64,000 nt of DNA from Scatophagus argus (Eukaryota; Chordata; Actinopteri; Scatophagidae), in assembly GCF_020382885.2 (NCBI RefSeq), contig NC_058503.1, positions 22,081,535 through 22,145,534 of the forward strand, given 5' to 3'. Positions 2,738 through 58,856 of the stretch are shown one piece after another (the first letter of the stretch is position 1; each line of letters begins with the position of its first letter). A model generated the notes under the pieces. That model made no database searches and was not told the origin of the DNA. It worked only from the letters and a program-made list of their open reading frames with translations. The translations under genes were made by a program, and so were the position numbers.

Positions 2738-3050
2738 CCGGGCAGCACAGTGGTGCAGCGGTTAGCACTGTCGCCTCATAGCAAGAGGGTTCCAGGTTCG
2801 AATCCCGGTCTGGGCCCTTCTGTGTGGAGTTTGTATATTCTCCCTGTGCCTGCGTGGGTTTTCTCCAGCTTCTCCGGCTTCCTCCCACAATACCAAAAAC
2901 ATGCACATTAGGTTAATCGGTGTGAGAGTGTGTGGTTGTCTGTCTTTGTGTGTCGGCCCTGCGATGGACTGGCGACCAGTCCAGGGTGAACCCTGCCTCT
3001 CGCCCATAGTCAGTCAATAGGCTCCAGCTCCCCACGACCCTGATGGATGT
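2738..3050 (+). repeat. tRNA-derived SINE, copy 1
   Basis: The head carries a pol III B-box-like GGTTCGAATCC at about 2795 and a 'gtggtgcagcggttagcactg' segment. The body and a degenerate GATGGAT tail follow. It is flanked by a possible 7-bp duplication 'tctgcag' (2731-2737 and 3051-3057). A longer copy of the same family lies in the opposite orientation at 51881-52244. Compared with that copy, this one lacks about 30 bp in the middle. It is a retroposon, not a functional tRNA gene. Confidence 0.8.
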
Positions 3051-20932: not shown

Positions 20933-22469
20933 TCAAGCACAGCCACACTCCTCCACGATCATGTTGGGCACGTCCCTCTTAACGATGTTGTATTCATCGT
21001 CAAAGTAGAGCATGGACATAGTACTGAGCTTGGTGGGGATGCAGCAGGAGTTGACCGAGCCTGGGCTCATACCTCTCATGCGGTACTGGTTAACGACTGC
21101 AGTGTGGAAGGACGAGGCCGAGCCCGGCACACCCGCCATGTAGGCCGGGCAGCTGCCCTCACAGTAGTTGCCGTAATAACCAGCAGGTGCAATGATCCAG
21201 TCGTTCCAGCCAATAAGGCGGAAGTCTATGTAAAATTGCTGCCGGCAGCAAAGGCCGCCGCTCGTGCCGTCGCACTCCAGCCCCCGCTTGCGAATGCGGT
21301 GCTTTCCGTCCGCCTGTCGCGCACGCACCACCAGGAAGGGCCGGTGGGACGGGTCTCCTGGGTCCACCAGCACCGGAGCCACGCCGGCTGTCTCACAGCC
21401 CTCGCAGTGCACCTCCAGGTCCTGCCGTCGGCTGCCTTTCCCGAACACAGCCCGCACCGCCTCCGAAAGGGGGAAGGTATGCCAGCCACTGCGCTTCAGA
21501 TCCACCCGCTTCTCCACCAGGGCCCAGCGGCCTGTTCCCCCTCCACCACCACCACCACCTCCTGGGCCTCCCTCTGCACCACTGGCAGCTCCTGCCTCCT
21601 GGTAGTGGATCTTGACAGTCACCTTCCTCCGGAGGCCCTTCTCAGGACCGGCAGGCAGCACTCGGAAGTAGAGCCACAGGTTTGCCTGGGACACATACAG
21701 GTTCTGGTTGCCCTCATTGGAGACGAGGAAGTAGAGACCAGACTTGGTGGATGTGTGCTCATCTGTTGGAGACAAACAGGATTAGGTTTATTGTCTGCCA
21801 TTTCTGCAACGTTAACAGCTCAATATAAATGTAGAAAAACATGACAGGGGTCACTTCAATAGACAGCCTGTTTCAAAATGTAGTTTTTAAACAGGAATGA
21901 GCCGGAGGGTTTATTATTAACACAGCCACGTCTTGTGGTCCTCATCAGCACATGAAGTTCGCTCGGTTGTCATGGAGATGGTTCAGCTGTCATCGCGAGA
22001 CGAAAGTGTGGGATTTCGGTAACATGATAACACATTGTTGCCAGAGCATGTCCTCGCTCACGGTACGACCACCTGCCATCACATGACCAAAATTCCAAAG
22101 CGAGGTCATGTGTTAAATGAACCATCTCCAAGACAACTCAGTCGTCAGTGGCCAAGAGATGTGGCTACAAGCTCTCTGTAAGTGGTCCTTCTTCTAAAAT
22201 GTTTTCGTCAGATATATTTGTTATTTCAAGAGAAGGGCTAAAGAGCGTTTCTCGAACACACACACACACACACACATGCCCACATACAAAGCAGAAAGCC
22301 TCCCAAAAAGGCCACAGCTATGTCTTTTAAGGGCCTTGTTTTCACTGTTGATGCTCAATCACTGTGTCAGGTGACCTCTATGGCTGCTCCTGATAGGCCA
22401 GCTGTGACAAGCCAGTTCTGGGATCAGGCCCAGTTGCTCTCAGGTCCAGCTTTGTAAGTGACAGGGCCA

Positions 22470-22517
<48 letters not shown>

Positions 22518-25500
22518 GAGAGACGGGAGAACAGAGAAGAGGAAGACCAAGGAAAGGAGGAAGGATGCAAGTGGAGAAGGTGGGAGGGTGGCGGACAACG
22601 CCAAGGCCCCCGGGGGGTTCATTGAGTTCGCTGTTGGTGCCCCCCCGAACCCCACCCGCACCCTACCCCACCCCTCCCCCCCTCCTTCCAGTGTGAGCGC
22701 CCTGAGAGTGACAGCACAAAGCCCCCTGTGAGGCACTGGGAGACAGCCGCGCTGCAGTCCGGCATTGAAACGCGTGGCTTTCCAGCAAAAAGCATGATGA
22801 GGCAAAAATAAAAGCCATTTACATGACATTGGCTACTTTCTACAGCAGCACAATGAAGAGATCCCGGGAGTCTAAAGGTGGCGATGGGCTCTCCCTGGCA
22901 GTGTTTTTTTTCTTTTTCTTTTTTTTTCAAGCCTAATGATGTCTTCCAAATTACCCTGAGGTAACTTGAAAGGTTTCCATTTCAGGAGATTTGGTACAAT
23001 GTGCTCAAGCAGAGCAGCTCCTTTGAAAGCGGCTAAATTACTTTGTTTGCCGACTGATTAGTGTGTGTCAGTGTCAGTAGGTGGCCACCAAAGACGGGCC
23101 CCCTCTTTAAGGCACCTCACGCCTCTTCCTCCTGTAAAGCACGGCTTTACATTCACACAGAAACCTGTTCAGACCAGCTTTCCACTCTGTAACATGTCAG
23201 CTGGGTGCTCAAGCACTTCACACACACACATTTGCATCCATTCATGCACAGACACATACACACACAACCTCACGGTCAGCAATACATCAACTATCAGCCT
23301 TCTCCTCACCAAAGCGTGGGTGTAAAGCATCAAGTGCCCAGTGAGCAGGTAGGGAAATCCACCTGAAGGAATCAGCTGAAGAGCAGCTTTTGCCTGCGAC
23401 TGCCCTAAAGGCCCCTCAGGGGCCTATAAGTATCTGCCCTCACCTCATTCAGCACTGTGCGTTCTTACGTGCCTCGACAGCTCCAAGCTTTGGAAATCGG
23501 GGCTCGCACAGCAACGAGCACACAGTGACGGTGTGACAAAGAGACGGGGAGGGAAGCCTGAAAATAAAACCGATCATCAATCTAACAGCTCAGCTGCTGT
23601 TTGTTCAAGGTGACTGGTTCCCATTCAAGATATCCACAGTACCCTGCAGGACAAGGTGTCATAATCATGCACAGCTCAAAGCCTTCCTGTGCAAAGCTGA
23701 GGGATTTTAACTGGTGGCAGTTTCTGAGTTTTGATGTTATTATAGCTGCTCACCGTTTGTAGCAACTTTTCATTTCATTTTCTGTTAATGTGGTGCTTAT
23801 CTTTTCTCACTAATCAAATAATTACTATGGCTGCAACTACATTATTTTCACTGTTGACTAATCTGCTTATTCTCTTCATGATTATGACGTCTTCAAATTG
23901 CTTCTTTTGTCCAACCAGCAGTGCTTTTGCAGTACAATTCATTCTGACATTTAAGAGGCTGAAACCAAAAAATGTTTGTTATTTCTGCTTGAAACATGAC
24001 TGAAATGATTAGTGGTTTATCAAAATAGTTGGCTTCTAACTTTCTTTCAATCGACTGAACAAATAATAGACCAATCGTTGCAGCTTTATTAATTAATCAT
24101 TAAACAGTGGAAAGAGTGACCAAATTACTTGTTCTGTTTGACTGATGCTCCAAAACTTTCAAACCAGAAGACATTTGCTATCAGAGAAGAGCAGCAAATA
24201 CTTACAACTGAGAAGCCGGACTGAGTAAATGTTTCTGTGATTGTTATTTTTTATAGCTTTAATTCACAGCCCAATTTGACAGCTTGTTATGAACCACACA
24301 GGATTGTAGAGGATAACAGAATGCAGTGCTTCTAATTCATAACGGATGTGTGAAAGTATGATAGTAACTTAGGATTTAGACATTTTAAAAACATAAGTGT
24401 AGTGCTGACAACAAAGTACACAACCACCAGGTGACACACCAGTCTCACCTCAGGCTCACTTTAGTAGCTGCTCACATCGCACGACTCATCAGGAGACGTC
24501 TCGTTTGGGCAAACTTCTCTAAGTTTTCTCCAAAACACAGCAGTCAGAAACTACCAACCTCACCTTCAGTTCAAGCTACATTTTGAAGGATTAAATAAAT
24601 GTGAAACAACACTGCAGGCAGCTGCACCGTGAGGATATAAGAAGCACGTTAAGGATCACTCACTACGTTCAGCATCACATGTAAACAAGTTTGATCATAT
24701 GGCTTCCTTTGTACTGAGAGAACATACCAGCCTCATGACTTATTTCTACTCAGGTCCTTCTAAAGGACAAATTGCTCTTTTCATCCAAACAATTTGGAGC
24801 TGGCCCCGACACGCCTCTCCTGACCCCACAGTGGAAAAGCTGCTCGCGAGTATCGGGACACCTGGGTGGGCTTGTGTGGATAAAGAGCTACTTCAGCGTG
24901 TCCCCACCTGCGCCACCAAGTCAGGGAAGAGGCCATGGCAGCAGGCAGGCAGGCAGGCAGGCAATCAGGCAGGCAGCTCCAGAACTCATTACTCAAAGCT
25001 GCTGTCGACAAGACCACACGCCGCGGAAGGACGAGGGCGCGGCGCACAGCATTCGTGGCTCAGACATGAGCAGAGGCCTGCATGCGTACAGCAGCCGTCC
25101 CTCAGGCCCGAGTCAGCACTCCAGGAATTCCACATAGGGTGAGGGAGGGAGGAAGGGAGGGAGGAAGGAGGAGAGGCTGGCTCCGTTCTTGTTAAAGCTT
25201 TACCACAGGGGCATTTTTAATAATGTTGCATAAATCATTTAAAGGATCACAAAGCTATACAGAGGCAGCCATACCCATTGAGGGCTGAAACACACACTTG
25301 TGAGTGAATATGGAAAATGTCTGGGTCGGGTCCAGGGTGGCCATGACTGACAGCTGCTCATGAAAGAGTCGTGTCCTGAAGTAAACCTGCCAACCCGATC
25401 CTGCAGAAGAACCGGGCCGGAGTTAATGACCTCCCATAATGAAGTCTTAATTCCGTGTCTTGGACCACTTGCCGTGAGTTCACTGGGTCCGAACGGCTAT

Positions 25501-27715
25501 AGCGAGCAATCAAGAAGCACCAATCTAAACTTCTCCATCGACCCCTCTCTCCTTCTCCCTCCCCTCCTTCCCTGCTTGTGTTCCCCGCTCCGCTCCGCTC
25601 CCGTGGATACGGGACACCGAATCCCTTATCGAGGACCCACGGGACCATGTCAGGGGAGAAGGGGGATTGGCATCGCCTCCCTCACCTGCCCAGGGCGGCT
25701 TGGCAGACCTTTTACCTCTGAGCTACCGCAACCCAAGATAAGAAGCGGGCTCCCTGGCTGACAAGCATGCAGTTAACCCTGTGCTGGGGGGGGGACTGAC
25801 CTCCACACATAAACATCTACCCACATCCATTTGCTGGCTCGCAGTTGGCCCAACATATGCCAACCTCGCCCCCCCCTCCTCAACCCACCCTGTCCTAAAC
25901 TGTGACAATTCAGGCCCCCTCATGCTCGGGAGGGGGAAGCTCCCCTGGCTTCAGAGCTTTCTGGAGACCTTGCCTCTGAGCCATGCCCTGGCTGGCAGCA
26001 TCCGATCTGAGGGGCGTGAGCCAGCTGGCCAGGAGGCAGACGGGGTCTAGGGATCAGGGACCCAAGCCAGCTCCATGGTACAATGCCACACAAAGGCTCA
26101 AAGGTGTGAGGAAGAATAGAACCAGAAAAAAAATAGAAGTAGAAGAAGAAGAAGAAGCAAAGGAGCCCAGCGAACCTTTAGAACGACAAAAACATTCTTT
26201 ACAACACTGCAATATGGGCACACACAATATCACCCCCCCACGCACACACACACACACACATCACCACCACCACCATCACTACCATCACCAGCACCATACC
26301 CCCCCACCCACACTCCCCCAGTCCAACCCTGCATGAACTCAAATGTCTCATGCATTATTCTGATTTCCTTTGTTTTCTTTGCTTTTTTTGCCTGCTTAAC
26401 GTTGACATGTTGGGTTCAGCAGGAACACACAGTGCTCTTATAATAATTGCCTGGCTTTTGTTCCCTTGTCATGAGGCTGCTCAGATCATTCCCATTGGAA
26501 GGCGGGACCTAGCAGCCCATTCAGGCTAATTGTACCGGCAGGGCCAATGGGAAAATGTGCGTGTGTGTGTGCGTGTGTGTGTGTGTGTGTGTTTAAGTCG
26601 TCCTATTTTGGTTGTCTTTAATTGTATGTTTTCTTTTTGTTAAACTAACAGCTTGTGTCAAAGACGTGGTTCTCACCGTGCTAACTGACAATTATTGGAT
26701 TCTGTCAAGCGCAGATGATTTTAGGTGTGTGTGTGTGTGTGTGAGTAAACTTGGGAAGGGGGTGTGTGAGTGAGTGAGAGAGACAGGCAAAGAGAGGAAA
26801 GGGTGTTCTCTCTAGACTTGTGAGAATTAGTTAGATACACATTGTTAGAGGAAGGGATAAATGGCCAATTGAGGGACTTTGTCCGTATTTAAAAGAGGGC
26901 TTTATACATTGGAGAATTGAGAGTGAGCACAGCTTTGGTGATGAAATTGGATTCAGAGGTTCTTTTTATCCCCTAGACAACACACGAGGGTAATTTAAGG
27001 ACTCGGTCTTTAGTTTCATTTCTTTTTAATTTTCACCTCCTGCTAAAACAGGAGCTTTTATCACGAGCCACTGGCTTCAGGCACGAGCTGTGGTGCAATG
27101 ATGTGGTGAAAACGATGACCGCGCGTGAAAACAACTTTTCTGTCATCTAATCTGTCGTTGGTGCTCAGTCACAGCCACATGACAAGCTCTGCAAATGAAT
27201 GAAATTTCATCTATGAGTGATTTTAAATTATTAACCCACCTGGGCTTGCCTATCAGAAAAAGTCAAAAGGTGAATGGGTTCAGCGAGGGGTCGATTTAGA
27301 TGTGTGTGATGAATTATTGATTATTACCTGATTCGGCGAAGCTGATGATCTCAGAAGTCTCGGCTTGGACCTCGTTGTTGAACGCAGCCTGTCCGTCAAA
27401 GCTGGGGATCTCCACCCGGCCGTCCTCTCGCACCTTCCCGGCGTGCAGCCTCCTCAGCGCCGTCACCATCGCAGCCTTCGGGATGGGATGGGTGATGTTG
27501 GGTCTGTCTCTCATCTGCAGCCGGTTCAGTATGTGTCTCTTCACCGCCTCCAAGAAGTCTATGTTCACCCGCTCCGACTGATCAGGCGCCCTGAAGCCGC
27601 AGGACGCGCACGACTCCTGGGGCGAGCTCTGAGTCTCTGCCCCGGTCACCGAGCCGCAGCGCACGGAGAGAACGCACGCAAATAAACAGGACAAAACCAG
27701 GCCGTATGTGCTCAT
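20933..27715 (-). CDS. inhbb: Inhibin/activin beta-B subunit precursor (two exons)
   Basis: Secreted TGF-beta family subunit. Homodimers form activin B; pairing with alpha gives inhibin B, which controls pituitary FSH. Exon 1 is 27328-27715 and ends ...TCAG|GTAAT. Exon 2 is 20933-21762, after acceptor ...CCAACAG. Phase matches: split codon G|AT. Together they give 405 residues, close to human INHBB (407). Residues 1 to about 22 form a hydrophobic signal peptide. The prodomain carries CASCGF early and a run of glycines encoded near 21541-21570. The furin-type site RIRKR precedes GLECDG. The mature part is 116 residues with nine cysteines in the activin-beta order: CC pairs at mature positions 12-13 and 80-81, and final CGCA. 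Segments such as [13 protein letters not shown] and [20 protein letters not shown] identify beta-B rather than beta-A. The start is the only Met before the signal peptide in this frame. Confidence 0.97.
22473..22513. repeat. (GA)n microsatellite
   Basis: About twenty uninterrupted GA units inside the inhbb intron. Purine-rich sequence continues to about 22570. Confidence 0.9.
26231..26320. repeat. CA / CAC / poly-C compound repeat
   Basis: A CA run passes into CAC/CAT triplets and then C-rich DNA. It lies within the inhbb intron and has no coding meaning. Confidence 0.8.
26557..26592. repeat. (GT)n microsatellite
   Basis: A GT run with one GC interruption, in the inhbb intron. A second shorter GT run lies near 26725-26742. 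Confidence 0.85.
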
Positions 27716-30813: not shown

Positions 30814-33800
30814 TTATGAGTCGGTCAGAGTCATTTGCCACACAGAGATTGGATTGTGTCTGGTGCAAGGTCGTCCCCCCAGCACCAGCAGGAGATCAGG
30901 CAGATGCTGGGCTACATCTCCATCCTCCTCGTCCATCGGCTCCTCAACTGAGCACTGTTTACTGAAAGCCTTGTTTTCAAAGGTCAAACAGTTTTCAATC
31001 CGCTGTCCATCCGTCTCCATCAGTTCTGAGGACTGTGGGAGTGTTTTCCTGCCGTAGCGCCTGTCAGGGCCGAACGTCTCCAGCTCTATAGCTCCATCTG
31101 ATCCTAGAAAGGTGAGCGGGGCAGGGAAGCACTTGTTCTTAAAGGGCCTCATTCTCAGATCCGGCAGCCTGGGCTGGAGTCCTGAGCTGGAGTCGGGACT
31201 GCTGGTGTCGGACCTGTAGCTGGGACCCAGCCCAGTGCAGCAGTGGTGAATCCTGTCTGGGGGGGTCGAGCCCAGGAGCGTGGCGACCTGCCCCCATGTC
31301 TGAGTGGTGAAGTTGTACCTCCACAGGCAGTTCTTTGGAGAGTTCTGACTCTCGCCTCCCCCAAAAAGAAGCATACTGTCCTTGTAGACCACAGCTGAAT
31401 GGCCCATCAGTCTGGAGGGACCGGACCTGAGGAAGACACAGGTGGTGTTAGCAGGAAGGAACACGCAGAACAATGTGTGCCTTAACCTCCAGCTGTGACA
31501 GTGAAGGGGTGGAAATCCTCAAATTATACCCAACACATGCAGCAAGTCTGACAGGAGAGAAGTGACGATGGGAGAAGCTGAATTCTGCATACTTTAGAAA
31601 TGACCAAATCATTATGTCAGTTCAGATTTACACTTTGTCCTCACCTGGTGTGAACAGGTTATCATTTTCTGTGACAAAGCAACAGCAACGGTCACATATT
31701 AAAGCCACGTTTCTAGTCCGGCTCAGTTAAGTTCGTTACACATTTTTTGCATCAATAAAAGATGAAGATAAAACACTGCAGAACACTGACTGGTCTCTGG
31801 AGCAACCAGAGTCGTCTGTGCTCTGCTGGAGGATTATTCTTTCCAGCATTATGTTGTCGTACTCGTCTTGTACCACATACTGAGAAGTGAAAACACAAAA
31901 CACTGGATGTCCTTCTGTGGGTGTAGTTGCAGTCATTGCAGCCGTGTTTACTGGACCAATTCCAAAACGTTTGATGAACGAATCCTTCACACAGCAATAT
32001 GTGTACATTTGGGGGTCAGGTTTAAAAATACCAGGATTCTACCAGTCAGATGTGGACTTTTACCCGGCTTACACAATGAAACTCTTTGGCGTTCTGACAC
32101 CTACACAGTGTTGAGGTTAAAGATAAAAATGATGTGTTGTTAACCAACCACTGTTACTGTGAACCAGCTGAAAACTGATCCCCGGCTGTTCAGCAGGCGT
32201 TGGCGCATTCAGTATTCAGCAGTGTCCTAATGGATCAAGTTCCTTCGTGGACACAGACTGATGAAGCGCTTGGACAAGCTGCTTGTGAAGTTTCCTGCTG
32301 TGGACAGCTGCTTCTGACCCCAGTGCAACTTACATTTACTTTATAGGCCGTGCCACATCATTCATGGTAATACCAGCACGTATCTTACAGTGGGAAAGAT
32401 GTCTCCTATCACAATGTTTACACTGTGACAAAACAGAAGTTCTGTGGGAAACATGATCAAGCCAGCATTAAGCAAAGAGCATGTTGCAGCATCATGACTA
32501 TATTTAGTTGTGGACACAAGCCAACACCCAAAGGGACAAAACATCAGATGAGTTCACTACTAACTTGTTTTTGACAGAGCTCCACATGTGGCTGGTGGAA
32601 TTCCACTTCCAGAAGTCCCTCTGCTCCCTCAGGCCTTTCAGGCCCCCGAACAGGTACATGCAGCCCTGGTAGGCCACGGCTGAGTGACTGTGTCTGGGTC
32701 CTGGGCCCAGTGAGGCCTGCTGAGAGGCACTGAGCAGGGACCAGGCTGTGGTGCCTGCCATATAAACACGTGTGTAGTTAATAAACACATTGGTGGAGGT
32801 GTGTCTTCCATTTGATGTTCCTCATAATTTGCAGTCTTTATCTGTATGATACAATGCGCGGAAAAAGTCCCTGCTGTGTTCCAAAATTTAAAAAGAAGAA
32901 GCATTTAGTTGAGACATACACATCACAGAGGAATAAAACTTAAACTCACCAAAATCCAAACTCCAAAACTCCTGTGAGGATCCTTTGATGTCGATGAAAC
33001 CTCCATACAGCAGCATGGCGGAGCCAACAACCACAGCACTGTGTCCCTTCCTGTTGGTTGGCTTTTGGGTCTGCACATACACATAAACACACACACTCAC
33101 GCCTGTAAGAGTTAGCGCACTTTAATCTAACAAAGTCCAACTCAAACCTCTCTGTGTTGTTTTTGCTCACCAAAGAGCTTCATAACAATTATTCACTTGA
33201 AAATGTTGTCTATCATCAACTCAAAAAAGGGAACAACAGCTTTATGGCTGCTGTCAGTAAGAATGCGGACGCAGAAGCGCGGGGAGGCTACAGGGGTTTC
33301 ATGTTAGCTCTTCTCACTTCAGCTTACTCTCTCACCTGAGGGGAGCCCGTCTTCCCCTGCCAGTGTACCCACTTCTGCTTTGCTGAAACACACACAACAA
33401 AGGAGAAAGAAAAGAAAGTACTGGTTAGCTGAAATTACTGGAAAACTGAAGGTAGAGATGAACAAGTTTAGTGAGAATGTTGTGAGGGGTGACTGCTAAG
33501 CCTGCGGCCTTGAAGGAAACGAGTTATGAAGCTCTCCTGCCACGCACCCACAGGTCAACCTTTTGAGCCATTATGTAGTAAGTCTGAAGGCAGTAACTTT
33601 TATTGTATTTCTGTTTCTGGTGATGGCTGAGAAAATGGACAACATGAGCCTTTGTGCAGTCATTCGCTATCGCCCAAAGAGATCCACTTTGTGGAAGTGA
33701 GCGATCTCTCCAAAGAAGGGATCTGTTGGCTCCACAGCTGCTGCACTAAGAGTGTGAACGTAGGAGGGGACGATTATGAAAATTAAATGAGACATATGGA

Positions 33801-43694: not shown

Positions 43695-44190
43695 TTAAGC
43701 TCCGTGACGAACACACTAAAATACACAAACCAGGATTAGCCGCTATCGTAGCATTGAAGCTAGCAGCTTTCCCACAATGAGGCGCACTTGAACACATAAA
43801 AGTAAAATGAAACTTTTAGAGGCTAATCAATATTAATTTTAAAAACATCAAGCCACCACGTGTGAATATTTGGATTTAAAGTGTAAAACAATAAAGTTTT
43901 ATATTTATTTTATATTTATATTAGCAGAGCTTATTACAACACAACTTATTTAGTGGGGTGCCCATTGCTCAATGGCAAGTGGAATAATAATAATGATACT
44001 AAGGGAAGTTAATACCCCGTTACATACGGTTACTCCGTATAGACAAAATACATAACAAGCGTTGATTCAACTTCTCAACAGTATATTAGTTAGTGCACAG
44101 TAGTTGTAGTTAAGTTGCAGAAGAGATGTTTTCTCTACATCGATTAGTTGGAAAGGTTAGTCTCTCAGATGTACGATGCGTTTCTTTGGG
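43695..44190 (+). repeat. Segmental duplication, left copy
   Basis: The run beginning 'ctccgtgacgaacacac' and continuing past 'gccgctatcgtagcattgaagctagcagc' recurs at 51216-51745 in the same orientation, with small indels. Further matching blocks continue to the right (44.65, 45.05 and 45.65-45.95 kb against 52.25, 52.6 and 52.68-52.96 kb). Confidence 0.85.
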
Positions 44191-44346
44191 TGTTGCTTCT
44201 TCTAATGTGAACTGAAAAAGTTGATACTCTTCAGACTTTGAGTTCATGTGTTTGGTAGACACGTCCTGTGATGTTTTCTGTATCTGCGATGAAGGCACGT
44301 TGTTTTTCAGACAGTATTTTGTCATATTTCTCTTTGTTCTGTACAG

Positions 44347-45887
44347 AAAAAACAATAACTGGAGAAAACGAGCCAGCAGAGAAGAAACAGCCCTCCAGCC
44401 CTCAGAGTCGGTAAGATGACCGAGAACAGTTATTTTACTCGTCTAAACTGTTTTTTCATTTCAACTGTTAGATTATAGTCTACCTTTAGTCTTGTAACAT
44501 CTTGGAGCAGAAAAAATAACTTACTGGGTATACGAGTCAAGAAGATTGAAGTAGCCTACCAATGTTGGAGTCACAGATATTTGGTGTGTAAATGTAGGAA
44601 TAATTGTTTTGTGATTATGTGAGTTACAAAACTTGTTGCTGATTTCTTTCTGACTAAAAATGATTCCACTATTGAACAGCCAATTTTCTCTTTACAACAG
44701 GGTGACCTCCTCAGACACAGCTGAGCAGGCTGAGGCTGGACTGGATAGAGACAAAAAGGCAGAGAAAAGGTGGCTTAATCGCCTCTTCTGTGATGTTGTG
44801 GTATGTTTGACAGAAAGTGTCATAGCCTCACTTTTAGCGTTTAAATTGCCTGTAACATTTTTCTTTTAGTGAGCTCAAATAATGTTTGATATAGTTTTTC
44901 CATATTGTTTTGGTTTTTCTAAGACTGCAGAAAAGAGCAACTGAGGAGAAGCTTCCAGCCCCAGAGAAAAGGTGAGACACTCCACTCTGAATACGTTTCA
45001 TGGGTTTCCACTAACTCATTTATTATTGCGATATTTCTGAAAAGTTCACAATAAAATGACCGTGTTTTGCCTTTTAGCACAGCTGATGCCCCAGGCGGTG
45101 CTGCGCCAGCCATGAGGACTCCTCTGCGAAGGTAGTGATGCTGTGTTCACTGTCTGTCAGGAGCATGTAAGGTGTGATCACTTCTTATATTGACTGATCA
45201 ATACATTCACACACAGACTACTTATTCTCACATGGCATCAGATTTTTAATCATAAATAACCTTTATGACGATATTCATTGTCCAGTTCTGCAGTAAAACA
45301 AACAAACAAACAAACAAAAAAACAGATTCATCTGAGTTCCTTTAGTTTTAATCTTCCTGTGATGTCTTTTTTGTTTCTCCAGGAGCACGTTTTAAGTCAA
45401 GTCAAGTCAACTTTATTTGTATAGCCAATTTTTACAAGCAGTTTGTTTTACATTCCCAGACACTTCATGACAGAGGATAACATTGAGGGGTTAATCACAG
45501 ACGCCACCAACATGCCGCAGGATGAGCCCGTCAAAGCTGTGAATGACTTGATGCCTCAGCTGGCTTTGCTGAGGCTGGACTGGATAGACAAAAAGGCTGA
45601 GAAAAGGTGAGACACTCCACTCTGAATACATTTTATGGGTTTCCACTAACTCGGGTGGGGGTGTCAGTTGTTTAAATGTTGTGGGGTACGTTTCACAAAA
45701 AGAGCTCATGTAACCACTGATGTGTCAGTCAGAACTGCATGAGAGCACCTGAAAATTTGTATTGTTCAGTAATCTGACTTTTTGATCCATGACTGTTTGT
45801 CTTTCCACCAACAGAAGTGTGAGGTTGCTCCAATTGTGCCGACTCTGACGAAGAGGAGAGGAAGTCACCAAGGCCTCCTCTGCGAAG
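44347..45887 (+). other. Array of short phase-matched exon-like modules
   Basis: Five segments with AG|...|GT borders keep one continuous phase: 44347-44410, 44701-44769, 44924-44971, 45078-45131 and 45460-45606. Joined, they read charged, Pro/Ala-rich peptides: KTITGENEPAEKK, then AGLDRDKKAEKR, then LQKRATEEKLPAPEKR, then APGGAAPAMRTPLRR. Last comes an acidic module starting RHFMTEDNIEGLITDATN and ending LDWIDKKAEKR. A sixth segment, 45815-45887, has good splice signals but stops in the array phase. I recognise no family. No start codon with leader was found, so this is either the middle of a fast-changing gene or a decayed copy of one. A SINE-like tail (45388-45455) interrupts the 5' side of the fifth module. 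Confidence 0.4.
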
Positions 45888-46039
45888 GTAGTGATGCTGT
45901 GTTCACTGTCTGTCAGGAGCATGTAAGGTGTGATCACTTCTTATATTGACTGATCAGTACATTCACACACAGACTACTTATTCTCACATGGTATCAGATT
46001 TTAACTGTAAATAACCTTTATGACAATATTGTTTTACAG

Positions 46040-46612
46040 CTTTAAGTGTGACACTTCGGCATACCTGAGATCCTTCAACGTGTGCAGCAAGATGTTGGAG
46101 ATCTTCTACCAGTCTGTTGTTGCCATATTCTTTGCCGTGGTGTGTTGGGGCAGCAGCATCAGAGACAGCGACACCAACAGACTTGATAAGACCATCAAGA
46201 AGGCTGGCTCTGTACTCGGTCTCAGGCTGCCGTCTTTTGAGACCGTGGTGGAAAGGAGGACGCTGAACAAACTGTCCTCTCCACCACACAGCTGACAGAC
46301 AGCAGAGCACCACCTCCCACAGGCTGCTACAGCTCCACTGTCAAAGGGACAGATGCCATCACACTGTACAATAACAGCTAAACTCTGGTCATAACATACA
46401 GTCACTATGCACTTTATATGTTTTACACACTTGGTTCACTGCACCTTACTTTCTACTTTATTTTGCACAACATTACACTGCTTATTTGTTGTATATACAA
46501 TTTTTTATATTGCTTTGTATGTTGCTATTTTTAACATATTTTGTATAGCTTATTGTGTGTAATGGTACTGCTGCACTGTAATTTCCCAGCTTGAGATCAA
46601 TAAAGTATATCT
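46040..46612 (+). mobile_element. LINE 3' end fragment, copy A
   Basis: The plus frame reads YLRSFNVCSKMLEIFYQSV, then AVVCWGSSI, RLDKTIKKAGSVLG and VVERRTLNKL. This is the conserved C-terminus of the fish LINE family whose 5' half lies at 41.3-42.8 kb. A non-coding 3' region ends in 'gatcaataaagtatatctatct', a typical tail. It is 5' truncated and has an early stop, so it is dead. Confidence 0.8.
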
Positions 46613-46817
46613 ATCTAACATGAATGTCCATCTGTCTGCACACGGACACATCTGCTGTTTCATCTATTTCTATACCGATCACTTTTGACTGATGAATGTC
46701 CCTTAATATGGGCTGCGGGAATATCCAACATCTCATCAACAATGCGGTGTCATCTGCAGTTTGTAGCCTTGCCAATCTGAAAAATAAAATGTTGGAAAGG
46801 TTTACACAAAGATACAT
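46611..46817 (-). mobile_element. hAT-type transposase remnant
   Basis: The minus frame contains TADDTALLMRCWIFPQPILRD, read in two parts, then KVIGIEIDETADVSVCRQMD. The 'IDETxDVSxxxQ' motif is typical of hAT/ZBED-like transposases and their domesticated relatives. Only this short piece is left. No BED finger or dimerisation domain is seen nearby. Confidence 0.5.
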
Positions 46818-47585
46818 TGAAATTAATATTATGTTATTTCTTCAACTAAATTTATGCTAAATATAATTTATAACAATCACATGAAACATGAATTTTTTTT
46901 AAGCGTACATGAAGCTTGTCGAAATAGCTGCAGCCCAACAGATTGGTCAGGTCCAACAAGGCTGGATAGTTGGTGTGATGTGCTGCTTCATGTTTGATGA
47001 GCCAGTATAAGCACTTGAATGCCCCATCAGGGCTTCATGCTCCAGGACAGTTACTGAAACATAACACATCATCAATATCAAGAAGCATGTTAATCTTAAT
47101 TTTAAAAAATGATTTTAACACTTTACCTGCTTTACAGGCTGTTCTGTGATGATCAGATGCCATGTGTTGGTCAAGTTTGTCCTTTCTGTAGGACTGGCAG
47201 GGTAGTTAAATAAAAATTCTGGCCTGACCTTGCCTTGTAACCTCGTAAAAAAAAAAAAAAACATCCAATAAAATAAATCATCTATTCACATGGATGGACA
47301 ATACAAGATAAGATTAAAAAAACATATGATTAACAACAACCAAATGCTTTCTTTTACTCAGTCTGGCTTAGTCAACACATCTCAGCATATCCCAAACTAA
47401 AGGACTAATCGTTTGGTATGCACACAGAGCACTAACTGTACTTAGCACTAATTGCGAATAGGTGGTCCCAAAGGCTAAACCTGGCCAGCTGGTTAATCAA
47501 TCACTCATTCAAAAAATCAATGAATCCAGCATTCATTCATTCGTTCATTAATCAATTCACTGACCAAGCTCGGTCTTGTACAGCC

Positions 47586-47741
47586 ATGGAGAGTATCTTA
47601 AGTCTGACAGCCACGTCGGATCAAAGCCAGACTGACGGTGCTGACCCGTCTGCAGCTTCTTACTACGTGTCTCGGTGGGAGGGCTGCAACAGTTTAGTAC
47701 TACCGGTAGATGTGGCGACGTTAACCGGGGCAGGTGGTTAG
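47586..47741 (+). other. Short ORF with strong start context, possible first exon
   Basis: GCCATGG at 47583-47589 opens a 51-codon frame (MESILSLTATSDQSQTDGAD...) in GC-richer DNA, ending at TAG. A donor-like GGGGCAG|GTGGTT lies just before the stop. The peptide is Ser/Thr/Asp-rich and matches nothing I know. It could be a lost gene's first exon or chance. Confidence 0.2.
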
Positions 47742-47834
47742 CATTTATGCTAGCATCTGCCGTAGCGCTAACTGTGCTTCCCACCTCGCCACGTACAGTT
47801 CGTTTAAAAAATGCAGATTTTTTCTTTTTTTGGT

Positions 47835-47852
47835 GGGGGGGGGGGGGGGGGG
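47835..47852. repeat. Poly-G tract
   Basis: Eighteen consecutive G after a T-rich run. Four frames crossing it give poly-Gly or poly-Pro ORFs that are artefacts. Such runs are prone to sequencing length error. Confidence 0.9.
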
Positions 47853-48400
47853 CGGCGAACGTTTGGGGAACCTCCGGTCGTACATTAATACTTGGTTTGT
47901 TGTTGACTTTTTTACCGCAACGTCGGCAACACGCTCTGCCCTGCTCTCCGAGTGTAGGTGGGTGTGTCTGCACCGGTGTGAGTGCACGTGTGTATGTTGT
48001 GAGAGAGGAGCGAGGGGGGAGGCCCGCCCCTCGCAGAGGAGAGGAGGATGTGACGAAACCATAGCCACGCATTACACTCTGAAATGGCGCAAATTAGAGT
48101 TAGCTTTTTATTTGATAAAAAGAAGGCCGGTTATAGGCCCTTTCGATTAAAATAAAAATTAAACAATGGATTTTTCTTTTTAAATCTACGACTTGAATTT
48201 CTGGGTGGGGGTCCTGGTGGCAGGGCGGGGGTGTCTGCACTATAGGGGAAACACTGATATTCATTGTCCAGGTTCATCTGAGCTGCTTCAGTTTTAATCT
48301 TGCTGTGATGTTCTGTCATGAAAAGGATTCTTTAACATAAACTCACCTGGCTGGCCTTGCTGTTCTTCTCTTGACGAGGATGATGTCTTCCTTTTTCCAG

Positions 48401-48600
48401 GATCAGATTTCCATTAGACTTATACAGGCACTTCATGGCAGAAGATAACAGTGAGGGTGATGTGATGCCCGACCCTGAGGTCATCGAGGAGATCTGCAGC
48501 ACAGCAGAACAAGTTTTTAATATTTGCTGCATAAAAACTATAAATACAAAAACAATGAAGCAGTGTCTAATTTACATTAATATTTTGTAAAATACTGAAT
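48401..48600 (+). other. Exon-module paralogue (RHFMAEDN type)
   Basis: After 'cctttttccag' the frame G|ATC reads IRFPLDLYRHFMAEDNSEG, then DVMPDPEVIEEICSTAEQ. It matches the acidic module at 45460-45606 (RHFMTEDNIEG). The sequence upstream (48240-48400) also matches 45255-45380. A weak donor GTTTTT follows; otherwise the frame stops at TAA near 48590. It may be a terminal exon or a decayed copy. Confidence 0.35.
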
Positions 48601-49149
48601 CAAATACAGCTGTTGATTTTACAGTAAAGATTTGTTAAAAGAATCTTTTTTTTTTTTTTTATTCTACTTTTTGATTCCGGGACCTGAGTCCTAATTTCAT
48701 ACCATAAACATGTAAATGTGAGCTGGTATGACAATAAAAGTTCTTAAATCCTTCCTCCTGTAGAATTTACAAATTACTGTGGTCTTAACACATACAAGTT
48801 GTAAAGCAAATAGAATGATAACATAATATTGTTAAAATGTTTCCTTTTTTTAATCAGGTAGATGTTTATATGGAGATGGACCATATTACATTTTACAGAT
48901 TCATATGTTATACTTTACAGATAAGAAAATATTACACATATACAGTATATTACATTATATTACAAATCTCTTTGTAAACAAAACAGAAGAAATATCTCGT
49001 GCTTCTTCCTCCACAGCGTGTTTCCTTCTGAAACTTTATGCATAAAGCACAGCCATTTTTCAGAACGTAGAAATTTTCTGTTTATTCTCAAAAGTAGCTG
49101 ATTTTCAGTCTCGCCCTCCTGGGGCTGAAGACAAATCCTTTCCATTTTG

Positions 49150-49790
49150 AATGGCCTTTTGCAGGCTGCTGAAGCAGGTAGAGGTGTGTTCAGCTTAACA
49201 GACGACTGACTCCCACCCTCTGCACCGGACTCTGATCAGTCAGAGGAGTGTGTTCAGCACCGGGCTGCTGTCTCTGACCTGCTCCACAAACAGACTCAGG
49301 AGCTCTTTGTCCTCCTGGCCATTAGACTCTACAACACATCTCTGGGTGTTCAGGGGTCACGATCCCAGCGACAGTCTGAGCCCGAGTCACAGCAGGCGTT
49401 AAATCTGAGGACATTTATTCCACTATGCACCTGATCTATCACCTTACTGTTTTGCACAATTAACCTGCACTTTATAACTCTTTCGTGGGGGGTAGCAATA
49501 TGTTTACAGTTCTGTTCACACTGTAGTTCTTGTCTTAACACACACCGTCAATCTGGTCGACCAGCTTTCTTTGCACTTTACTATACCTTATGTAGCATAT
49601 GTTAGTTATTTAGTATATGTTTAGTTTATTTAGCATATGCTTAGTCTATTTTCCACTAACAGTGAGGCCTTGTTTGTCTGTTTGTTAGTTTACTTTTTGG
49701 CTAACCTACTGCTGTAATGTGTTACTGGATGCTTGGATTTTCCCTGGGATCAATAAAGTATCTAACTATCAATCTATCTGTCAATCTAAG
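49150..49790 (+). mobile_element. LINE 3' end fragment, copy B
   Basis: It contains the non-coding and C-terminal remnant typical of this LINE ('ctcctggccattagactctacaacacatct', then a T-rich 3' region). It ends in 'gggatcaataaagtatcta' followed by a decayed ATCT repeat. No open frame is left. Confidence 0.65.
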
Positions 49791-49902
49791 AAGACCCCAT
49801 GGTGTGGTGGGCTGTTTAATTGTTGTATGGTACGTTAAATATAAATTCACTTGCCAGGCTTTTTGTTCTTCTCGACGAGGATGATGTCTTCCTTTTTCCA
49901 AG

Positions 49903-50160
49903 ATCAGATTTCCAGAAATGATCAATGAGGGGGACGTGATGGAGGAGATGAATGATGAGGTGGTGTCAATCACAGACGCCATCGGCATGCTTCTGGATGA
50001 GCCCCTCCGTATCACAGATGGCCCCACGCTGTCAGGTTTAATGCTCGACACTGAGGTGCAGTGCAGTGTTGAGCAGATGTTCCTCCAGCCAGTGCTCAGC
50101 GCTGTAAACGATGTCTTTGATATTACCTGTGAAATCAAGACACACAAAAAAAAACTGTAA
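49903..50160 (+). other. Exon-module paralogue, acidic, 80-codon frame
   Basis: After 'cctttttccaag' the frame reads IRFPEMINEGDVMEEMNDE, then VVSITDAIGMLLDEPLRITD, then LMLDTEVQCSVEQMF and a C-terminal KKKL before the stop. It matches the 45460 and 48401 modules at IRFP, EGDVM and ITDA..M..DEP. Its upstream intron end matches 48360-48400. The acceptor has lost one base relative to the 48.4 kb copy, which would shift the array phase. The family is unknown. Confidence 0.35.
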
Positions 50161-50674: not shown

Positions 50675-51880
50675 CCTGCGTCTGGTTACACAGCTTGTTC
50701 CACTTATTTGTACTGTTTTACTCTTTAGCTTTTACACTGTGTGGCATGAATCCCCTTCACCTTTATTTGTCGCTCCGTTCCCCGCGTACCTGGGCATAGC
50801 TCCCGAGCGTGGGCGCCGCCTATCACCTGGAGCTCCACGGTCCGCAGAAAACTCAAAAATAACACCGTCGGATGTTCGGACCTCCTCGTCGCCACTTTTG
50901 TTGTATTTCCTTCCGTTGTTTCGGGTAGCTAAGTCTAACGCTCAGGCGGTTCCCAGGAACGACACAATTTGTTAAACTTAGTGCACACCGGGTAGAGCTC
51001 ATCGCACGCCGACATATTGGCGCACTAACAACATTACGTGTTTACGTCATGCGTAAGTACGTGTAACGGTTACTGCACCGTTGTGAGGGATGCGTTGTGT
51101 AATTTAAATGAAAAGACGACTTCTACTTCGACTTAATATCGACTTAACTCGATATTTAAGGTCAATCTCCTGGAAAAACGGGAGTAAAATATCTTACAGG
51201 CAGGACTGCAATAAGCTCCGTGACGAACACACACCAAAATACACAAACCAAGATTAGCCGCTATCGTAGCATTGAAGCTAGCAGCTTTCCCACAATGAGG
51301 CGCACTTGAACACATCAAAGTAAAATGAAACTTTTACGGGCTAATCAATATTACTTTTAAAAACATCAAGCCACCACATATGAATATTTGGATTTAAAGT
51401 GTAAAACAGTAAAGTTTCGTCCTTATATTAGCAGAGCTTATTACAACACAACTTACTCAGTGAGGTTCCCCTTCACAAGTCCGCAGGGGCTCCACGGGTG
51501 GGCCAGTTTACACTGTCCGTGGGGAACTGAACAGCTGATACATGCAGTCATAATAATATCTCAGTGGGAAGTGGAATAATAAGTTAATACCCCGTTACAT
51601 ACGGTTACTCCGTACAGACAAAATACATCACAAGTGTCGATTCAACTTCTCAACAGTAGACGAGTTCACACCGAGTTACAGAAGAGATCATGTTTCACTA
51701 CATCGTTTAGTAAAGGTTAGCCTCTCAGATGTACGATGCGATATGTCTCTTCAGAGGCGAGTAGGTCTATATTTAACAGTAAAACAATTTTATAGATCAA
51801 ATCGTGCAGTTCATTTACAGTAACGTATTGGGAGAAAAACACTCCTTCACATACAACTTTAATGGTGTGGAGTTATTCCA

Positions 51881-52244
51881 TCCATCCATCCATTTTCTAT
51901 ACCGCTTATCCGTCAGGGTCGCGGGGAGCTGGAGCCTATCCCAGCTGACTACGGGCGAGAGGCGGGGTTCACCCTGGACTGGTCGCCAGTCAATCGCAGG
52001 GCCAACACACAAAGACAGACAACCACACACTCTCACAGTCACACCTAGGGGGCAATGTAGAGCAGCCAATTAACCTAATGTGCATGTTTTTGGTATTGTG
52101 GGAGGAAGCCGGAGAACCCGGAGAAAACCCACGCAGGCACAGGGAGAACATGCAAACTCCACATAGAAGGGCCCAGACCGGGATTCGAACCTGGAACCCT
52201 CTTGCTATGAGGCGACAGTGCTAACCACTGCACCACCGTGCCGC
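51881..52244 (-). repeat. tRNA-derived SINE, copy 2 (full length)
   Basis: On the minus strand it has a head with GGTTCGAATCC (B-box-like), a body, and a (GGAT)n tail. A perfect 13-bp duplication 'tggagttattcca' flanks it (51868-51880 and 52245-52257). Same family as 2738-3050. Confidence 0.9.
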
Positions 52245-52282
52245 TGGAGTTATTCCACTATTGAAAAACCAATTTTCTCTTT

Positions 52283-52513
52283 AAGATGAAAGATGAAGAT
52301 GAAAGTGACATATTTTGTCATTGGAGGGAACTCACTCCAACGAAATTTGTGCTCTGCATTTAACCCACCCAAGTGACGTGCACACACATACAGCAAACCG
52401 GGGCAGTGGGGGTTAGGTACCTTGCTCAAGGGTACCTCAGCCATGGACACCGGGACGGGGAATCGAACCAGCCATCCACCGGTTACGGGTCCGCTGATCC
52501 ACGACTACCCAAC
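52283..52513. repeat. Dispersed fish repeat inside the duplication
   Basis: It contains 'ctctgcatttaaccca' and 'ccttgctcaagggtacctcag', shared with 39765-40010. It interrupts DNA that is continuous at 44.68-44.70 kb in the left copy, so it entered after or during the duplication. Confidence 0.6.
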
Positions 52514-53643
52514 AGGGTGACCTTCTCAGACACGCCTGCTGTTAGCGCCAGCTTTTCTGAGGCTGACAGAAAGACAAAGAAAAGTGGCTTCTGAAAAGTT
52601 CACAATAAAATGACCAACCGTGTGTCACTTTTCAGTACAAATGACGTGCAGCAGCGCCAGCCATGAGGACTCCGTGGTGGGGGGTCGGTTGATTAAATGT
52701 TGTGGGCTACGTTTCACAGAAAGAGCTCATGTAACCAAGGATGTGTCAGTCAGAACTGCATGAAAATTTGTATTGTTCAGTATTCTGACTTGGCATTTTT
52801 GATCCATGACTGTTTGTCTTTCCACCAACAGAAGTGTGAGGTTGCTCCAATTGTGCCGACTCTGACGAAGAGGAGAGGAAGTCACCAAGGCCTCCTCTGC
52901 GAAGGTAGTGATGCTGTGTTCACTGTCTGTCAGGAGCATGTAAGGTGTGGTCACTTCTTTTTTCATGTTACCTTTCAAAGACACATCAATACAGCACTGA
53001 CCACCATCTGCTTTGTTCATTCAGAACAATTCATCATGATGATTTCAGTTAGAATAATCTGATCTTTCTACCAGCACAACTTAATCTGATTTACATGCAC
53101 GTCTATGCTGAAAATCAGAAGACAGACTTTAAAACAGAAATGTCAGATACACACACACACACACACATATGTATGTATGTATATATATATATGATTTTTT
53201 TTGTTTGTTTGTTTTTTCTCCTAATTTAAAAATGTCTGCTGTGAAAAAGGTCTGACCAATTTTGACTCCTAATATCAGGACACATGTTGAAGCTATGACC
53301 AACATATATCAAAACATACTTTAAGGAGAAGGACATCTCTGTAATGTAGACATACATACATACATACTCTGACATCACCCATGCAGAAGAGGCCTTCATG
53401 AAGCAACACCCTTCACTAACTTCATATACACAGGTGTGTTCCTAGATAGACTGCCATGACATTATGTAGACACATTCTTGGTCCCCACATAATGAATTAT
53501 AATCATGTTGGTAACAAAATACATGCAAAACAAATGACACTCTGATCAGCCTCAGGTATACTTTGTGCTTGGTGCAAATTAGTACACTTTACAGTGCTAA
53601 TATACTCAGCTAAGATGGAAAAGCATATCTGTTAAAGAACATC

Positions 53644-55803: not shown

Positions 55804-58800
55804 TCATAGCTGGGTGTTCTTATCCTTCTCTTCACTGTTCCCGTTCTCTTCAGACTCGAAGGCGTTATTTTCAAAGTAGCCCTTCACTTTTTGTTGTACA
55901 CCATCGCCAGCTTCCAGAGATGCATTCTCACTGTCTGCATGAGCTCCACCGCAATGTTTTTTATACAGCTGGTAGCCTGCAGAGGAAGAAACATGGATTC
56001 AGAAACTCACTCATCTGGACCTTTTTGTCTGTCATTTGACTTGATTTTTGTCCCGCCACTTGACTATTATTTTTAGAGAAAACGAGAAACTAGAAAGGGG
56101 GATGATGAGCAGTGTGACAAATCAAGGCACTTGTCCATGCAAAAAAGGGGTGTATTTTTATTAAACTTATACTGCAACCCTCTCATTTTTACTGCATCGA
56201 AGTCAAGCCTTATTTCCTTGTGTGACATGGCACAGGAAAGGGCAGGCTAAGCTAGCAGCAAGCTAGCTTCTTATCACATATTATCACATATAACTTTGAT
56301 CATTGTCCTTGAACTCACTGCAGCCAGGTTACGTAACACACATCCAATCAGATATAAACAGGTGGCAGGTGAAAATCAGTGACTTTTACTCAAATCCTGT
56401 ACTCATGCATAATTTTGAGGTATTTGTACCTGAGTATTTCCATTTTCTGCTACTTTATAATTCCAACCTGCTTAATTTGGGGGGGTATTGTGCTTTTTAC
56501 TCTCCTACATTTATTATAGTATATGTATTTTTTTTATACATATACTGAATAATGGATCCCAGAGGAGTTCAACACAATAGCTGACCAATCTCTAGTGTAG
56601 AACATATACATAGATTTAAATATATTTATACCATTGTGGGTGAATACTTGATTTTGATTGGCTGCAGGGTGTTCATTAAGTCCCAACAGTGGACACCTAC
56701 TCAGGAGTTCCAGTCAAACTGTCTCTTACCTGTTCTAAATTAATACACCTCAACATTAGAAATAAATGCCATGAAAAACAATCTGAATTGAATTATACGC
56801 AATCTGAGTGTTGTCCTGCAGTGCCTCATCCTCACCACAGGATGGCGACAGTAACACACTAAGCTGCCTCCCTGTACTGCCGATAGATAAGAGATAATCT
56901 CTGCTCACTGTCCGCTTCAGGCTGCGGCTGACGGCGCACATGGACTATCGATTGCTTTGTGAAAATCAACGCTCACCTCCCACACATGAGACGGCCACCA
57001 CCAGCTGGAAGATGCTGTAGATGAGGGGGAATGCAAACATGACCTCCAGCTCAGCAGGGCTGAAGGACAGCTGGACAATGGTGCTGCACAGCTGGGAGTT
57101 CTGGAAACCCGTCTCCAATGCAATGGTTCGACATCTGAACAAAGCAGGGAATCATAAACAATCTCCTCAGTGAGTGCATTTATTAGCAGGGATGTTTGCT
57201 GATGAAGCAGTGGTTTTACGCATTATGAAACTGAATTAAATTCTAATTTGGCAAAAGAAATTTAAACAAGTTAGGGAAATGTACAGCAATCAAGATACAG
57301 GCTTTTGTTTTTCAACAAAATTATGCTGTACAAACATCACCACAATGCTTTCACCCTACCTGTACCAGGGCTGGCCTGCAATGCGGGCCAGGAGGAACCC
57401 CAGGCCGAAACCCACAAAGGGGTAAATAGTTCCAATAATCCAAAGGGAGGGAGCAATGGTCCAGGAGGACTGGTAGAGAATCCCTCCAACCACAGCTATG
57501 ATGATAATGAGAGCAAAGCCTCCAATGGATCCGACCTGTACAGGGCAGACACACAGGAGGCTTGTTGTTGGAACAAATCCCTTATAAAAGGTGAAAGGTT
57601 CACAAAAAATCAGCAGAGCGATATTGTTGTAGTTTTCCTACCTTGAGGATTTTTTTTGCCACGAGGGGCCATTTGCGCTTCACACAAATTCCCAGAGCAA
57701 TCGGGATAAGAAGAGACACCAGAGTGATGCCTGGGGATACACACATTTCATATCATCTCATGCAGTGGGACAACAACATGTGTGGTGCTTTAAAATAAAC
57801 CATCCTCATATTCATCCACATTATATTTTTTATTTATTTACTTCTAGTTTAAAAGGCCACTGGTGCTCTGCTTACCGATGCTGTCATATGGGATCTGGAT
57901 GGTGCCAGTGGAAGTCCAGAGGGTGGTGTAAATGAGCAGACAAAGAGGCATCATCCCCAAGGCCATAATAGATGAACAAGCTGTCATGCTGATGCTGAGG
58001 ATGGTCAATATGGACAGAGTTGATCAAATAAGCTTCTTTAATGACATTTCATTTAGCAAGCAGCTCTAAAAGTAAGTGGATGGTCTGTGATAGCTGATAC
58101 CCCACTCAGGGATTAGCTCAGTGGGGCCCATTTTCACCCTGCCATGAGCCCTGCTGTGCACAGTACGACACACAAAGGGGCCCGTGAGGACCTCGAGGAT
58201 GAGTCCTCACTTGCACTGCATAATAGCTTCATTAGCAACAATAACAATATCGCCTGACAGATACATTAGCAACCCAAATGGGCACACGTGTTTGGGTTCC
58301 ATAAGGATCAATTTATCAAAATTTTTGCTCAGACACCCGGACACTGTTACGAGCATGTAGAACCAGGTTTTTCCATAGGAACTCCATATTTTGAACATAA
58401 TCCCAAACAGGACAGTTTTCAGTCATCTAACCAACACGTCAACATCAGATTATCCGAGCTGGCCCAGCCGGTTTCTTACCTCAGGTCCATGTCTCCGTCC
58501 AGCCAGTAGCAGATAATGTTCGAGCCAGTGCCTCCAGGACAGCAGCCCATGATGACGATGACAATAGCCTGCACAGGCATGACATTGAAGGCCAGTGCCA
58601 AGGCAAAGGCTGTGAAAGGCATGATGCCAAACTGGCAGAGGAAGCCGATAAAGATGCCCCAGGGCCTCCTGATGTGGCCCCACAGCTTCATGGCATCCAC
58701 AGTGCAACCCATGGCGAACATGACAAAAGCAAGCATTACAGTGAGCACTGTGCTCAACACCACGCTGAGCACTGCATTGAAGTTACTGGGAGGAACAAGG

Positions 58801-58856
58801 CAGCTTGTGCCCGAGCACACTGTGGCGAGAGAGTTGCAGTCAGCTGTTGTTGCCAT
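55804..58856 (-). CDS. slc10a2: Apical/ileal sodium-bile acid cotransporter (six exons)
   Basis: Takes up bile salts with Na+ across the apical membrane of gut and kidney epithelium. Exons on the minus strand: 58480-58856, 57876-57994, 57642-57730, 57360-57535, 56977-57134 and 55804-55976. All have GT-AG borders and matching phase, giving 363 residues (human 348). The N-terminus has the SLC10A2-type [17 protein letters not shown]. Hydrophobic segments then follow through [32 protein letters not shown], the signature [22 protein letters not shown], and [40 protein letters not shown] places the acidic residue at 261, the same number as the Na+-linked Glu261 of human ASBT. The C-terminal tail is polar and acidic, ending NTQL. 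Six exons match the vertebrate gene. The start is the first ATG of the frame. Nothing looks broken. Confidence 0.97.

Follow-up and report, generated by a model that had tools for sequence, protein, structure and literature searches.

The stretch analysed here is a 64-kb window (64,000 nucleotides) of Scatophagus argus contig NC_058503.1, in which a series of short predicted exons on the plus strand, hereafter copy A, can be joined into one reading frame and is followed by related, partly broken copies of the same material. A preliminary description of this DNA had drawn attention to serial segments bounded by AG and GT that share one splice phase, and four such segments stand: E3 (44701-44769, 69 bp, ending KKAEK(R)), E4 (44924-44971, 48 bp, ending PEK(R/S)), E5 (45078-45131, 54 bp, whose 3' end and following intron are common to the exon-like E7) and the chimaeric E6 (45460-45606, 147 bp, again ending KKAEK(R)). 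Each is preceded by AG, followed by GT, open, divisible by three in length and phase 2-2, and the terminal exon T1 (48401-48590, beginning IRFPLDLYRHFMAEDN..., 62 codons with its stop at 48588-48590) is likewise entered in phase 2, through the strongest acceptor among those scored. The shared phase does not extend to two other segments. The 5'-most, 44347-44410, is entered in phase 1 and left in phase 2, unless it is read from the start codon at 44289 or through a different acceptor; it is the 3' part of a start-containing exon, 44289-44410, that is open from that ATG up to its donor and left in phase 2, and an alternative acceptor gives a symmetric-phase segment, 44315-44410. E7 (45815-45887) does not keep the phase of the chain, being open only if entered in phase 0 and left in phase 1; entered in phase 2 it reads ten residues and then a stop. 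The like edges that had been described (KKAEK(R) at 44769 and 45606, PEK(R/S) at 44971) are also present, but they are not independent of each other, as part of this likeness is a 96% identical duplicate (below).

From the ATG at 44289 a stop-free frame of 209 residues runs through E3, E4, E5, E6 and T1 to the stop at 48590, and the same frame without E6 has 160 residues. A possible first coding exon further upstream (44126-44155, MFSLHRLVGK, left in phase 0), placed by the sequence and by the alignment of copies A and B, would lengthen this product: read from the ATG at 44126, with a donor following 44155 and an acceptor preceding 44259 that scores weakly (0.4), the frame has 229 residues. 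Copy A is a phase-consistent open chain from start codon to stop and, judged by its sequence, could through splicing yield a charged protein ~160-229 residues long.

The in-phase exon chain exceeds chance. A script that chains open AG/GT segments of 48-147 bp, using splice matrices of general vertebrate values, scored the chain of four in ~1,320 nt; none of 200 dinucleotide shuffles reached four (highest 2), nor did any of 173 other windows of equal length (highest 3), the thresholds of this single-setting control having been taken from the observed exons, i.e., after seeing them. When 16 threshold settings with slightly wider limits were used, the observed chain was matched by 0 of 200 shuffles in each setting; other windows matched it in two settings (2 and 3 of 170 windows) but in none of the remaining 14. 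The observed chain had five members in 12 of these settings, because the segment 44315-44410 qualifies too, three members in three settings and two in one; at donor threshold 2 the E5 donor (score 0.6) fails, and 45095-45166 probably stands in for it. Since the ends of E4 and E6 are mutual duplicates, the four segments of the chain are not fully independent.

Terminal-type sequence occurs three times. Besides T1 there is T2 (49902-50160), which is open for 85 codons and has lost its acceptor AG (AA is found there); six bases further in, just before 49908, there is an in-phase AG, though a weak one (score 0.8). The 5' part of E6 is also of the terminal-exon type (HFMTEDN..ITDA..DEP), resembling T1 in HFM(A/T)EDN and T2 in ITDA..DEP (80% over 46 nt), and its 3' part is of the E3 type, joined to the E4 donor. 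About six codons of E6 (LRLDWI) are E3 sequence in another frame, and a two-base difference restores the KKAEKR frame. The acidic modules said to recur at 45.46, 48.40 and 49.90 kb are thus shared pair by pair (RHFM by the first two, IRFP by the last two, ITDA..DEP by the first and third), but just a short (N/S/I)EG stretch is present in all three, and the 49.90-kb exon is the one preceded by AA. The frame of these exons is mostly held in common: in ungapped chained blocks of E6, T1 and T2 aligned as DNA only it is shared in all four at a score of at least 9 and in six of seven at score 8, and in 13 of 16 matches at score 8, chained or not, from which it follows that the family was formerly coding. 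We considered the AG before E6 as an old acceptor and rejected it; alignment suggests former T-type exon sequence there, T1 having ATACAGGCACTTC at that place, and the fragment ahead of this AG looks like what we take to be a fish repeat. AlphaFold2, given T2 as a single sequence, produced a poor model (mean predicted local distance difference test score, pLDDT, 48.3; predicted template modelling score, pTM, 0.29).

How these pieces are related was examined by within-window blastn and pairwise alignments, which found direct-orientation paralogous blocks nearby, non-coding sequence included, with duplicate similarity running through introns at 87-98%. The 5' block of copy A, which includes the putative first exon and may hold the promoter (43696-44180), is repeated at 51212-51740 (88.6% over 273 nt and 80.2% over 177 nt by blastn; inner blocks 188/202 and 79/86). 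The end of E4 and its intron match the end of E6 and its intron (44/46 in the intron part, and 96% identity between 45599-45652 and 44964-45017, intron included), the end of E5 and 144 nt of intron match the end of E7 and its intron (137/143 in the intron part), the 3' part of E3 matches that of E6 (93% over 44 columns), and the introns before T1 and T2 match in 58 of 67 positions. E7 of copies A and B, identical at 73/73, is the only exon pair alike throughout, and its flanking introns match at 143/150 with three gaps (before) and 54/55 (after); E3/E4/E6 and E5/E7 are alike at their 3' edges and in the introns, and E6, T1 and T2 are alike in parts. Ahead of T1, intron sequence at 48269-48311 carries on the E5-type intron (45323-45365) past the point, 46030, at which the E7 copy of that intron stops. 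As intron likeness ends at 46030 and resumes at ~48257-48269, ~2.2 kb (46031-48256) appears to have been inserted there, splitting the E7-to-T1 intron. A 164-nt tract around E7 is 99% identical between the two copies (45779-45942 and 52796-52959), and the similarity ends soon downstream; gene conversion could account for this tract.

We think it probable that the locus is a small multi-exon gene that has undergone several head-to-tail duplications, all of them partial. The ancestral unit would have contained the 5' block, the start exon, short charged exons (E3, E4, E5 and an E7-like one) and an acidic T exon. Unit 1 (44.1-45.5 kb) would have retained most of this, unit 2 (45.57-48.59 kb) a fused E3/E4 tail, E7 and T1, unit 3 (49.8-50.16 kb) T2, and copy B (51.2-53.0 kb) the 5' block, E3, part of E5 and E7. 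Since E6 is a terminal-type exon joined to an E3/E4-type end, it links unit 1 to unit 2; a break within T may have made an internal exon out of a terminal one, and the fused exons may have come from deletions between short matches (GAGAAAAGGTG at the E3/E4 ends, CTCCTCTGCGAAG at the E5/E7 ends). The exon sets differ between the units and copy B, and the E6 junction falls within an exon. Partial and chimaeric tandem duplicates have been described in a review as having breakpoints that ignore gene borders and introns copied along with exons, and as yielding new exon-intron structures where partial copies are fused (PMC3449122). The present locus is like them in having breakpoints inside the gene and introns duplicated with exons, and differs from them in showing a terminal-type exon as an internal, phase-matched one. 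Its class may be either partial duplication with recruitment or chimaeric.

Copy B (51212-52959, delimited by blastn and alignments) consists of the 5' block, an E3-like segment, the 5' part of E5, and E7. Its putative first coding exon has a stop before its donor, its E3 is one base shorter at the donor, and its E5 (exon start 52636) shows two gaps, +2 and -9 (net -7), in the stretch that leads from the acceptor to the shared part; neither E4 nor any T exon was found in it by blastn or the A/B alignment. The second 5' block and exon remnants at 51.2-53.0 kb point to plain tandem gene duplication with decay. Copy B also contains a dispersed repeat, 51908-52244, that matches 2742-3048 on the minus strand at 86% over 337 nt, and this is one of three repeat-like inserts (46.0-48.3, 49.2-49.8 and 51.9-52.2 kb). 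The first of these, the ~2.2 kb insert, begins with a segment (46040-46620) that has an 84-codon phase-2 open stretch and an AATAAAG tail and resembles what we take to be the 3' end of a fish long interspersed nuclear element (LINE). Exonisation of this piece was considered and it was kept out of the gene model, because its LINE likeness is a presumed one and it has no Pfam match. The same insert holds, on the minus strand at 47557-48072, a 171-aa open reading frame (ORF) that has no Pfam match and an end presumably resembling the start of ZNF862-like/hAT-derived proteins. The second repeat-like 3' end (49180-49795), with AATAAAG and a short-repeat tail, lies outside the gene and aligns weakly with the first; its repeat type is our assumption.

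The family is not a recognised one, as the preliminary description had said. Neither the joined exons nor the single T exons had a Pfam match, the sole NCBIfam match scored 14.3 bits against a cut-off of 163, and in the PDB there was one match for T2 (E 0.45), and the joined model had none with E of 1 or below. Scanning a viral contig collection with the T2 peptide gave three pattern stretches and no relative. Among the papers listed by literature searches, none was recognised by title or abstract opening as describing the locus, and we do not claim that it is absent from print. Elsewhere in the 64-kb window, three minus-strand ORFs have family matches: 20936-21775 to TGF-beta (E 7.5e-31), 30817-31473 to Kelch repeats (Kelch_3, E 1.6e-09) and 58479-58856 to the family of sodium bile acid symporters (E 2.2e-25), a gene content that suggests a vertebrate and probably a teleost; these were among eight window proteins compared with Pfam, of which the joined exon model and three other ORFs had no match. 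Upstream of the TGF-beta ORF, 27317-27715 on the minus strand has below-cut-off matches only (TGF-beta propeptide, E 0.047), and we take the minus-strand region 20936-27715 to be an inhibin/activin beta-like gene. Scans of the whole window with Rfam (at the gathering threshold) and for tRNAs gave no matches each.

Because the chain is above chance, a 209- or 229-residue frame is open and the T-type exons mostly share one frame, a multi-exon gene of an unrecognised family, at least formerly coding, is supported by the sequence. Whether its product is under selection now is a different matter, and several observations weigh against a gene that is still kept. The comparison of modules by the ratio of nonsynonymous to synonymous substitution rates (dN/dS), proposed in the preliminary description, came out mixed: the proportions of synonymous and nonsynonymous differences (pS/pN) in five short in-frame blocks were 0.58/0.07, 0.10/0.22, 0.20/0.08, 0.00/0.20 and 0.37/0.00, tiny samples with few sites, and three of the five use E3. 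Between copies A and B, E3 agrees at 50/57 and has four gaps (5, 3, 4 and 12) that sum to a net of zero, and nearby introns agree at 35/39 and 143/150, so E3 is no better kept than the introns. On the other side, hand-set anchors in eight comparisons gave one zero length difference and seven non-zero ones, all multiples of three, but one of these seven follows from the others, and anchors picked by eye favour in-frame outcomes. Also against a kept gene, small gaps, frameshifts, lost exons and a repeat insertion have broken copy B, the acceptor of T2 is gone, E7 does not fit the common phase, and no homologue was found in any library tried (Pfam, NCBIfam, PDB and viral contigs). The locus thus appears formerly coding and may or may not be constrained now, and we regard transcription and translation of copy A today as having a little less than an even chance.

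The rival that survives best is that all copies are dead, i.e., decayed partial pseudogenes whose parent gene is elsewhere or lost. This is a serious possibility, if one we think somewhat doubtful: the frameshifts and missing exons of copy B, the AA at the T2 acceptor, the part of the E6 tail that lies in a shifted frame, the repeat-like inserts in three places and the lack of a significant family match all fit it, but in copy A six or seven exons, bounded by fair splice sites, read through without a stop, and the T exons are mostly in a common frame. Unlikely, in turn, is the opposite extreme, that copy A is a living, fast-evolving gene of an undescribed family in which a terminal exon was made internal by tandem partial duplication, giving a protein with two successive RHFM(A/T)EDN modules; for such a gene, a well-kept 5' block beside exons that change at least as fast as introns would fit an arms-race role, immune or reproductive. 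That the units belong to a dispersed repeat, or to a gene fragment carried by a transposon, and not to a host gene strikes us as quite improbable. The surroundings are repeat-rich and copy B includes the block that recurs on the other strand at 2742-3048, but that block is outside the exons, no exon is copied elsewhere in the 64 kb (blastn, E 1e-5), and the exons have no transposase or reverse transcriptase match in Pfam.

The process named in the preliminary description was the gain of modules by intron-to-intron duplication, and an array growing in this manner and kept for its length or composition is in our estimation very unlikely. Titin PEVK, triadin and junctin have short symmetric exons that encode lysine/glutamate-rich peptides and occur in long runs of alike exons. 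The locus is like these in its short symmetric exons and charged peptides, and symmetric phase-2 exons with similar edges are a layout that tolerates such duplication; it is unlike them in having at most three edge-sharing exons (E3, E4 and E6) and no significant Pfam or PDB match. The duplicated blocks are exon ends plus introns, in E3/E4/E6 as in E5/E7, with at least one junction inside an exon (E6), and nowhere did three whole exons alike along their length stand in series. On present evidence, then, the exon chain seems real and its origin seems to have been wrongly named; the recurring modules have the look of common, patchy duplication of a gene and not of a new kind of modular gene. To chance open segments between chance splice-like sites we give hardly any credence, since, even though segments of 48-69 bp are often open by chance and the thresholds were fixed after the exons had been seen, no shuffle or other window at the single setting gave such a chain and the homologous T exons mostly share a frame.

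Our reading of partial head-to-tail duplication concerns a small gene, perhaps a fast-evolving one, that lies in a tandem cluster undergoing decay. Among fish lineage-specific new genes, DNA-level duplication was the source of 1317 of 1541, and 70.8% were reported expressed, according to one survey (PMC8618825); the present locus resembles the genes treated there in DNA-level duplication. If copy A is dead, the locus is an ordinary decayed tandem cluster, which gene finders may wrongly fuse into one modular gene. If copy A is expressed, it would be a readable example of a terminal exon turned internal with its frame unbroken, and an entry point into an undescribed fish protein family.

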